This document shows positions 7,101 to 45,678 of a DNA stretch of 64,000 nt, in pieces. The DNA comes from Pelosinus sp. UFO1. Its GTDB lineage: Bacteria > Bacillota > Negativicutes > DSM-13327. Numbering within the stretch: position 1 is the first letter of the stretch; every line of letters starts with the position of its first letter. Below the pieces are notes generated by a model. It made no database searches. It was not told the DNA's origin and saw only the letters and a program-made list of their open reading frames with translations. Where the stretch lies: positions 4,022,001 to 4,086,000 of the forward strand of contig NZ_CP008852.1 of assembly GCF_000725345.1 (NCBI RefSeq). Direction: 5' to 3'. A program made the translations under genes and the position numbers.

Positions 7101-7185
7101 TGAATCGGCAGCTTGGCGGTCATAGAATAAAAATTCCTTAGACCCATAGCTTTGCGTCCTTACCTTTCGATAAGTTTGCCCAATA
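7101..7185 (-). promoter_or_regulatory. Cyclic di-GMP-I (GEMM-I) riboswitch aptamer
   Basis: Read on the minus strand, the segment contains the class I hallmarks in order: a hairpin capped by CGAAAG, the highly conserved GGACGCAAAGC, a second stem (GGGUC with GACC), and the receptor segment CCGCCAAGCUGCCG. Family assignment rests on these recalled consensus elements, not on a covariance search. It precedes an intrinsic terminator and the MCP gene. Confidence 0.88.
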
Positions 7186-7266
7186 TTTGGTTTCGTATTT
7201 TTACTTTATTCTACATTATATTACATATAATGTCAACAAAATGAACTATTAAGACTTCATAATATA

Positions 7267-43314: not shown

Positions 43315-44157
<843 letters not shown>

Positions 44158-44238
44158 TTACTTTATTTTTTAGCTCTAAAAGATTGGTGCTACTTTCACC
44201 TTCACTTTGATTGCCCAGCAAATTCATTTTTACCATGT

Positions 44239-44267
44239 TGAAAAAAGAGAACCAACGTGTTATAATC
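44239..44267 (+). promoter_or_regulatory. Plus-strand promoter of the tandem RNAs
   Basis: TTGAAA, 17-base spacer, TATAAT, pointing away from anfH (divergent). The first structured RNA starts about seven bases downstream. Confidence 0.75.
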
Positions 44268-44273
44268 TATAAC

Positions 44274-44358
44274 GGGTAAATTGAATGAGCCTAGTGCCAC
44301 TGGGATTATAAAGTTTGCCTAGCTTCATGGGTACCACGAATACTCATGAAGCTTTTTA
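44274..44358 (+). ncRNA. Tandem structured RNA, element A
   Basis: About 85 bases: GGGTAAA, then CCTAGTGCCACTGGGATTA, a small stem (CUGGG with CCUAG), and a terminator hairpin AGCTTCATG/CATGAAGCT with loop segment UACCACGAAUA and a U tail. Element B repeats the whole arrangement. Family not recognised. Confidence 0.65.
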
Positions 44359-44419
44359 TCGTCTAAACCTATAAAATCACCACCCTTACTGAATAATTAG
44401 ACCTATTTATATGAAAAAT

Positions 44420-44505
44420 GGGTAAACCAAATAGACCTAGCGCCACTGGGATTAAAGTTCCAGTCCCTTCATAAATACCACGAATACTTATAAAAGGTTT
44501 TTATT
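44420..44505 (+). ncRNA. Tandem structured RNA, element B
   Basis: Homologue of element A: GGGTAAA, CCTAGCGCCACTGGGATTA, stem ACUGG/CCAGU (compensatory relative to A), terminator CCTTCATAAATA... with the same UACCACGAAUA loop and UUUUUAUUU. Only a weak promoter-like sequence precedes it, so it may be read through from A. Confidence 0.6.
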
Positions 44506-44506
44506 T

Positions 44507-44544
44507 GCTTCATGAGTACCACGAATACTCATGAGGCTTTTTAT
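44507..44544 (+). terminator. Third hairpin of the tandem RNA array
   Basis: GCTTCATGAGTA/TACTCATGAGGC with the same UACCACGAAUA loop and a U tail (TTTTTATTATTT). It has no upstream GGGTAAA/CCTAG part, and lies against the stop of the convergent transposase-like gene. Confidence 0.65.
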
Positions 44545-44567: not shown

Positions 44568-45566
44568 TTAATTACATTCGGCTTGCAACGTCATCCTATC
44601 ATTTTCTAAATCATCTCTATGCCCTAATAGATTACGCCTTTGATGGAAAGGACAGGCTGCATTATATTTTATCATCCATCGATCAAAAGCAGGTTGGATC
44701 ATTCCTAATGATACGTCAAACGCTTCTGCCTCACTGAAAAAGTCATCCAAGAAATCTCGTTGAAAACGTTGTATAATGCCAAATTCATGCTTAGGCTCTA
44801 ACCACTTGATGCCCATCGCTAGAATACTGCCCTCAATCTTCCCTTCTTCCGCTTCCCAGTGATCTCGAGTCGATTTGAGAGAATGCAAAATAGTATGAAT
44901 CTCATAACCTCTTCTGCGATAAAAAGGAGCAATTTTTTCTTGCAACAACTTTAGCCCTATTTCACCAGAACAACGACGACTGACTTTGCCAAAAGCATAT
45001 CCATTATATAAATCAAATAGTAAGTGAAGATAAAACATTTTATTTAACCTTCGGAAGAAGATACATTCATATACTAGTAAATCCCCCGGTCTAACTGCTG
45101 GAAAATCTCGGTCACGAAACGCCGGATTCAATCGTTCAATGAACTGTACCTGCTTTTTGTCTAACTCTATTTCCTTATTAAAATAGAGTCGCATTAACTC
45201 CAGGCATACATCTTCTCTACTTTCAATACCACACTCTGTACGCAGATTTCGCAATTCTTCCATTGCCATAGAAATACCACGCTTATTTAAAAAATCCAAT
45301 ATACGAAAATCATTCCAGAAGGGATACTCTAAACAGATTGTCATTAATAAATCACTAAGTTTTTCGCTAGAAGATTTGCTACTTGTTACAGGAGGGATTG
45401 CTTCAGAAATAATGGTAACTCGATTGTTTTCATTCCAGTATAAATGCCCAGTAAATCCAATCGATCCATCTGTCCATGGCGCATCTACTTCAACATCGCC
45501 CAGCATCATTATCTGAAGTCCTGTTACACCGTGCTTCTTCGATGCTAATATGCTGTTACCCGACAC
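44568..45566 (-). CDS. Transposase-like protein with degenerate DDE site
   Basis: 332 residues. Residues about 65-120 resemble the helix-turn-helix of IS481-type transposases (LEYPFWNDFRILDFLNKRGI); about 155-310 resemble their integrase core (AVRPGDLLVYECIFFRRLNK, YNGYAFGKVSRRCSGEIGL, WMIKYNAACPFHQRRNLLGH). The three acidic residues are not kept: Glu167 stands for the first Asp, no Asp in the HSLKS region for the second, Gln266 for the Glu. The frame is intact, no inverted repeats or target duplication were seen, and a leader RNA with terminator precedes it. GTG 45566 has AAGGGGG eight bases ahead. Likely domesticated; function unknown. Confidence 0.7.
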   Translation of the reverse strand: MSGNSILASKKHGVTGLQIMMLGDVEVDAPWTDGSIGFTGHLYWNENNRVTIISEAIPPVTSSKSSSEKLSDLLMTICLEYPFWNDFRILDFLNKRGISMAMEELRNLRTECGIESREDVCLELMRLYFNKEIELDKKQVQFIERLNPAFRDRDFPAVRPGDLLVYECIFFRRLNKMFYLHLLFDLYNGYAFGKVSRRCSGEIGLKLLQEKIAPFYRRRGYEIHTILHSLKSTRDHWEAEEGKIEGSILAMGIKWLEPKHEFGIIQRFQRDFLDDFFSEAEAFDVSLGMIQPAFDRWMIKYNAACPFHQRRNLLGHRDDLENDRMTLQAECN

Positions 45567-45582
45567 AATACGCACCCCCTTA

Positions 45583-45678
45583 TAAAAAGTAATAGCCGAC
45601 CGGAACGCACACAGGCATTCGGTCGGCACTTCGTTGTACTCTAAACCAAAGACAACTTAAACATCATTAACTTAACTT
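45583..45678 (-). ncRNA. Leader RNA, copy 3 (upstream of the transposase-like gene)
   Basis: About 96 bases: a 5' part with a less clear hairpin (loop region UUGGUU), hairpin GUAC/GUGC with hexaloop AACGAA, terminator GCCGACCG/CGGUCGGC followed by a UA-rich U tail (UAUUACUUUUU). It ends 17 bases before the GTG start. Conserved with copies 1 and 2 over GUACAANGAMGU and the terminator stem, with paired changes. Confidence 0.68.

Follow-up and report, generated by a model that had tools for sequence, protein, structure and literature searches.

A stretch of DNA upstream of an iron-only nitrogenase operon in Pelosinus looks like the gene for a small structured RNA that is read away from the operon, and it raises the question of what such an RNA would do in the leader of a nitrogenase mRNA. 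The window, i.e. the whole stretch of 64,000 nt that was analysed (G000:C1:4022001-4086000), belongs to a 5.1-Mb Pelosinus genome (Negativicutes), with P. fermentans JBW45 and P. propionicus as named genus mates. The operon beside the RNA lies on the minus strand and reads anfH-nifI1-nifI2-anfD-anfG-anfK-nifB; the matches to ANFD, anfG, anfK, nifH and nifB all exceed the curated cut-offs. A preliminary description had reported two tandem structured RNAs plus a third hairpin, divergent from anfH. The features of the locus are:

43315-44148, minus strand: anfH, first gene of the operon and presumably the regulated one (TIGR01287 nifH, 462 bits)
44238-44266, plus strand: antisense promoter TTGAAA-17-TATAAT, matching the sigma-70 consensus at 11 of 12 positions
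44271-44362, plus strand: element A, a structured antisense RNA of ~90 nt made of P1, P2 and the terminator P3 (model matches, covariation)
44274-44282, plus strand: 5' strand of P1, GGGUAAAUU, which pairs with AGUUUGCCU at 44312-44320 in the minimum free energy fold
44283-44289, plus strand: internal-loop strand with the family consensus AAAUAAA, conserved in the alignment
44290-44304, plus strand: P2 hairpin CCUAG-UGCCA-CUGGG (fold, covariation)
44321-44353, plus strand: P3 terminator hairpin with the loop CCACGAA at 44334-44340 and a T-run after it (terminator scan)
44377-44387, minus strand: Shine-Dalgarno-like orphan site in anfH-sense orientation, AAGGGTGGTGA in the window and AAAGGAGGTGA in relatives
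44417-44506, unstranded: element B, a promoterless degenerate copy (52.4 bits) with its loop at 44478-44484, whose hairpin folds on the anfH-sense strand
44507-44537, unstranded: third hairpin C, which shares the loop (44519-44525) and has a T-run on the plus strand

The divergence was borne out, with element A on the plus strand and anfH on the minus strand. All three elements are present, B repeating A 146 bases further on as described, and A is structured with a promoter and a terminator; however, B and C are promoterless, so the locus does not hold a pair of autonomous sRNAs. The sigma-70 promoter that had been noted ahead of element A is indeed there, and together with P3 it gives A, by sequence alone, its own promoter and its own transcript end. 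Among the 47 promoter-bearing copies of the family, 33 have exactly TTGAAA/TATAAT and 42 keep the spacing of 17. The fold of element A stands out from shuffled sequences with a z of -5.6 and that of hairpin C with -4.4; element B does not beat its shuffles when folded on the plus strand.

Upstream of anfH, the minus strand also carries an ORF of 353 aa (44571-45629) that has no Pfam match. It shows a weak resemblance to IS3 transposases (E 2e-4, far under the cut-off), and its counterparts at the equivalent position in other Pelosinus are 73-77% identical. A relative with 37% identity adjoins another copy of the RNA (L080). Possibly the ORF is a domesticated transposase.

The preliminary description could not match the elements to a known family and had proposed a search against Rfam and a new covariance model. 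At the gathering score, Rfam gave no family match for the RNA in the window and ten related loci, and at a relaxed E-value nothing but sub-threshold noise. (The sole Rfam family found in the window is a c-di-GMP-I riboswitch at 7104-7190 on the minus strand, with 87 bits.) With BLASTN, 18 of 100 class genomes yielded relatives, and a covariance model built from 16 such relatives found the RNA in 49 of 380 class genomes and 23 of 102 genera. The model matches of element A reach 93.6 bits (R1) and 86.3 bits (R2). The count of 49 is a lower bound, since two genomes of family f10 and G062 also have the element, albeit with low scores. Among the 398 genomes of a phylum sample, the model matched class members only, apart from a chance match of 36.7 bits (G494) that we rejected as a tRNA beside a plain terminator.

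The distribution follows nitrogenase. All 49 positive genomes carry a nifH-type match, for which 98 of the 380 class genomes pass the cut-off, and no genome without such a match is positive. In five nifH genomes (G010, G013, G131, G311 and G312), the region upstream of nifH is a different one and lacks the element. The window genome itself has a second copy (C1:40779-40872), which lies in the nifH leader region of the Mo-nitrogenase. At 37 of 39 inspected loci, the RNA diverges from the first gene of a nif or anf operon, which can be nifH, anfH, a nifD-type gene or nifI, and its start usually lies 50-140 nt from the start codon of this gene. At the other two loci (L101:642-730 and L107:5199-5291), it diverges from formate-type transporters, by sequence inspection formate/nitrite-channel-like and oxalate/formate-antiporter-like, beside a formate-tetrahydrofolate ligase; the same module in front of such genes suggests a reusable device. 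On its own strand, no gene is conserved downstream of the RNA, so it cannot be the 5'-UTR element of one. Some genera also carry a small conserved reading frame of 73-106 aa with the motif VCKADLISL, located between this RNA and the operon for nitrogenase (L079:6444-, L080:4633-, L081:6206- and L073:6047-).

The structure is maintained throughout the family. P1 of the types GGGUAAAU with AUUUGCCU, P2 of the type CCUAG/CUGGG and the P3 terminator are all kept. In the family alignment, 21 of 23 base pairs change on both sides, and 91.4% of the cells are paired. We counted 153 double-change cells against 39.9 in shuffled alignments and at most 30 with the partner slid; the alignment is fitted to the model, which favours pairing, but both controls still lie far lower. 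By helix, changes on both sides occur in five of the six modelled pairs of P1 (77% of cells paired), in all five of P2 and in 11 of the 12 of P3 (97% of cells paired). The internal-loop strand is conserved as sequence: at columns 14-19 of the alignment, the bases A, A, U, A, A and A are each kept in 45-61 of 62 copies. The loop of P2 and the internal strand on the 3' side, on the other hand, vary in sequence and length.

Pairing that is kept while the sequence varies had been claimed before, on the grounds that the stem CUGGG/CCUAG of A is replaced by ACUGG/CCAGU in B. The general statement holds, as the covariation across the family demonstrates, and the relatives, in which a loss of both sequence and pairing would have spoken against it, keep their pairing. 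The proposed B stem does not support it: ACUGG/CCAGU occurs only in the window and in the 98%-identical L012, and five other Pelosinus lack it. In A, there is a conserved CCUAG/CUGGG stem, but CUGGG does not pair with a downstream CCUAG; the partners are 44290-44294 and 44300-44304, enclosed by the two strands of P1.

Which strand carries this structure can be read from two asymmetries. On the modelled pairs, G-U outnumbers A-C by 133 to 27, and in 46 of 57 copies the plus strand gives the more stable fold, on average by 5.9 kcal/mol. The G-U excess together with the better folding indicates that selection acts on an RNA that is read away from the nitrogenase genes. We found no sign that alternative pairing of P1/P2 with either arm of P3 is selected, as the duplex energies of own and species-swapped strands are equal, and there was no signal for kissing between the P2 and P3 loops within the RNA.

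The three hairpins had been described as terminators with different stems and one identical loop. The loop identity was confirmed by three exact copies of TACCACGAATA (44332, 44476 and 44517), but B is a poor hairpin on the plus strand (-0.6 kcal/mol, compared with -12.9 kcal/mol on the anfH-sense strand). The loop CCACGAA is found in 21 of 21 hairpins from seven Pelosinus genomes, with varying stems, and other families have its reverse complement UUCGUGG or variants of it. In 10 of the 11 lineages that have both A and B, the two share an identical loop (permutation p 5e-5), even though the outer stems average 62% identity; gene conversion may account for part of this concordance, and the lineages share ancestry and comprise few independent changes. 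Constraint on the loop, as suggested earlier, is thus supported. The suggestion that it serves as a seed for fixed target mRNAs is not, since other families have the reverse complement in its place, the nif and anf copies of one genome have different loops, and matches elsewhere in the genome are not in excess. The 11-mer has 10 exact matches in the genome, three at the locus and seven elsewhere, compared with seven for the reversed control, and we therefore rejected trans targets reached through it in the own genome.

Kissing antisense RNAs carry a YUNR motif in the recognition loop of either RNA, and their loops set incompatibility groups (PMC4485353). With orientation collapsed, 17 of the 22 distinct loop types of our family have YUNR on one strand, i.e. 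a U-turn in one of the two RNAs, compared with 8.1 in shuffled loops (p 4e-4). Within one Pelosinus genome, the loop is CCGCAAA in the nif copy and CCACGAA in the anf copy, and 11- to 13-mer pairing across nif and anf yields -9.9/-10.1 compared with -14.1 kcal/mol. The inversion of the loop between families preserves sense/antisense complementarity; an RNA from one strand is always complementary to the other strand, and complementarity alone proves nothing. The loop pattern reads as that of cognate kissing loops, in which orientation is free and A must match its target hairpins.

In six of seven Pelosinus, the sense strand gives element B its better fold. This preference and the missing promoter would be expected if B is a target and not a second antisense RNA. 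The argument is limited to the genus Pelosinus; outside of it, the antisense strand has a slight advantage in the folding of most B hairpins. Downstream of B, another hairpin, AAAGGGGTATCAATgaACCG...CGGTTcaTTGATACCCCTTT, recurs at L077, L079, L080, L082, L083 and L085, and in several cases a long T-run follows it on the sense strand. By its looks, this is another kind of attenuator, one that belongs to anf-type leaders.

The sense leader has an organization of its own. At most nif loci, a promoter TTGCNN-17-TATANT is found on the nifH strand beyond the 3' end of the RNA, and ~20 nt after it follow hairpins AAGC-AAxGxx-GCUU that overlap sense terminators (e.g. L091:6559-6735). These hexaloop hairpins often come as two per nif leader, 60-100 nt apart and not as an adjacent pair. 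A hexaloop with A1 and G4 is the recognition loop of ANTAR proteins, and known ANTAR targets are adjacent hairpin pairs; given the wider spacing, we call the hairpins ANTAR-like only. The window genome encodes one ANTAR protein (G000:C1:1432752), and element A does not contain such hexaloops (its P2 loop is UGCCA, its P3 loop CCACGAA). Judging from the motifs, ANTAR-like attenuators with the TTGCNN-17-TATANT promoter apparently form a class-wide layer of nif control, and for Pelobacter and other bacteria, ANTAR sites have been predicted ahead of nitrogenase genes (PMC3369931). The nif sense promoters lie 120-280 nt past the 3' end of the RNA, so that the two transcripts are predicted to overlap, with an RNA of the element A type encoded antisense inside a predicted nifH leader of ~300-400 nt. 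For anfH in Pelosinus, we infer an mRNA start far upstream as well, the sense promoter being a guess.

Between the last attenuator and the RNA, nif loci have AAAGGAGGTG on the sense strand. In its plus-strand form (CACCNCC/CCTCCTT), this orphan Shine-Dalgarno site occurs 10-40 nt past P3 in 40 of the 47 promoter-bearing copies, compared with 1.4 of 57 in shuffled sequences. It has neither a start codon at proper spacing nor a conserved ORF; a leader peptide or small ORF after it was rejected by eye, since the frames lack conservation and frequently run into a stop codon right away. STAB-SD elements protect mRNA, and by analogy the orphan site may protect the nifH mRNA in this way. A sigma-54 promoter in the TGGCAC of the P2 complement was also considered and rejected, as the -12 element is missing and TGGCAC is not conserved in relatives.

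What, then, would the RNA do? Its position is locked to nitrogenase leaders, which argues for a role in cis that the preliminary description had not proposed. We put at about even the chance that it is a cis-encoded antisense RNA which restrains the nitrogenase leader by loop-initiated pairing. A strong housekeeping-type promoter upstream of nifH or anfH would fire away from the gene and yield the ~90-nt RNA with its P1/P2 domain and P3. The nifH mRNA would start further out and run through one or two ANTAR-like attenuators, the orphan ribosome-binding site and the complement of the RNA before it reaches nifH. The antisense RNA could then contact this leader with the 7-nt kissing loop of P3, pair with it and lower nitrogenase expression. 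That the antisense RNA leaves the ribosome site of nifH uncovered counts against the model. The simplest route would be duplex formation and cleavage between nifH and the orphan Shine-Dalgarno, which otherwise would be protective as a STAB-SD, and head-on interference might act alongside. The operon would be switched on only once antitermination yields enough sense RNA. In anf leaders, hairpins B and C would display the same loop on the sense strand as extra docking sites for A.

P1/P2 and the AAAUAAA strand are conserved beyond what antisense pairing needs, which speaks against a plain antisense RNA, and a protein or ligand bound at this domain is possible. An aptamer formed by P1/P2 for Mo, Fe, glutamine, formate or something similar could determine if antisense transcription ends at P3 or continues across the attenuators and the sense promoter. 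The aptamer-like domain right before a terminator, the conserved unpaired strand and the use of the module at nif, anf and formate-transporter genes fit this idea, and antisense-acting riboswitches exist (PMC9943018). Still, we consider it unlikely: mutually exclusive terminator and antiterminator pairings were not found, own pairs being no better than species-swapped ones, and the P2 loop and 3' internal strand vary in sequence and length. The broader notion that P1/P2 with the near-invariant AAAUAAA is a new ligand- or protein-sensing RNA, switching antisense control of Mo and iron-only nitrogenases class-wide, appears just as doubtful.

It also seems improbable that A merely neighbours nitrogenase operons and controls distant mRNAs in trans through a seed such as CCACGAA. 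The promoter, the terminator and the size of ~90 nt would suit such an sRNA, and the nif-related NfiS and NfiR of Pseudomonas stutzeri act in trans (PMC6606865). However, the position upstream of nitrogenase operons is fixed in some 25 genera, and the loop appears as its reverse complement in other families, is free to vary among nif copies and has no enrichment in the genome outside the locus. A leader hairpin of the sense strand or a protein operator in the DNA might, through its palindrome and loop, look from the opposite strand like an RNA gene; for a DNA site, loop orientation would be irrelevant, the orphan Shine-Dalgarno is on the sense strand, and the Pelosinus B hairpins favour that strand. 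The G-U excess, the better folding of the antisense strand, the compensatory changes in all three helices and the fixed antisense promoter and T-run make this quite unlikely. Least probable, and hardly to be expected, is pure transcriptional interference, in which the divergent act of transcription alone matters and the RNA is a by-product. A strong promoter that fires head-on into the sense leader and is confined by a terminator would be suited for it, but the covarying P1/P2, the conserved internal loop and the A/B loop concordance are left unexplained. We prefer the cis-encoded antisense RNA as a working model.

Nitrogenase control in anaerobic Firmicutes-related bacteria without the proteobacterial NifA circuit is poorly understood. 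A class-wide, covarying antisense RNA between the attenuators and nifH or anfH would add a second layer of RNA control to nitrogenase and would rank among the few chromosomal antisense RNAs that are structurally conserved across families. It bears on how Mo- and Fe-nitrogenases stay off and stay separate. In the open papers that we searched, we found no report of an antisense RNA in nif leaders of Negativicutes; a prior mention as an unnamed candidate motif in the supplements of motif surveys is possible.

Other structured RNA candidates have been described near nif genes or in the class, namely the nifV motif of Geobacter and the ldh2 motif of Negativicutes (PMC11109978, PMC8632094). These are sense-strand 5'-UTR candidates of other genes, and their described locations set them apart. 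NfiS and NfiR are likewise small RNAs tied to nitrogenase expression, but they are trans-acting and proteobacterial, and a relation in sequence or structure was neither found nor expected. With the ANTAR-controlled attenuators of nitrogen genes, the nif leaders here share A1..G4 hexaloops over sense terminators, and the genome has one ANTAR protein. Those attenuators are sense elements further upstream, whereas our RNA is a separate antisense module, and some nif leaders of the ANTAR type do not have it. In antisense-acting riboswitches, such as the S-box directed at ubiG in Clostridium and the B12 riboswitch directed at pocR in Listeria, a structured 5' domain and a terminator are likewise transcribed against the regulated gene (PMC9943018). 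In contrast to these, the nitrogenase RNA has no known aptamer in Rfam and no sign of a terminator/antiterminator switch.

There is also a likeness to the antisense RNAs that control plasmid copy number (ColE1 RNAI, R1 CopA and pIP501 RNAIII, with pMV158 RNAII as a contrast). They too are short, constitutive-looking, built of stem-loops and directed against their own leader, and they share YUNR recognition loops of ~7 nt, variants of which form separate specificities (PMC4485353). The nitrogenase RNA differs in being chromosomal, in its place at nitrogenase operons, in its extra two-helix domain and in its class-wide distribution, and its kissing is a prediction from sequence. As a conserved chromosomal element of nitrogenase operons, the RNA appears to be new, while the device itself resembles the antisense RNAs of plasmids.
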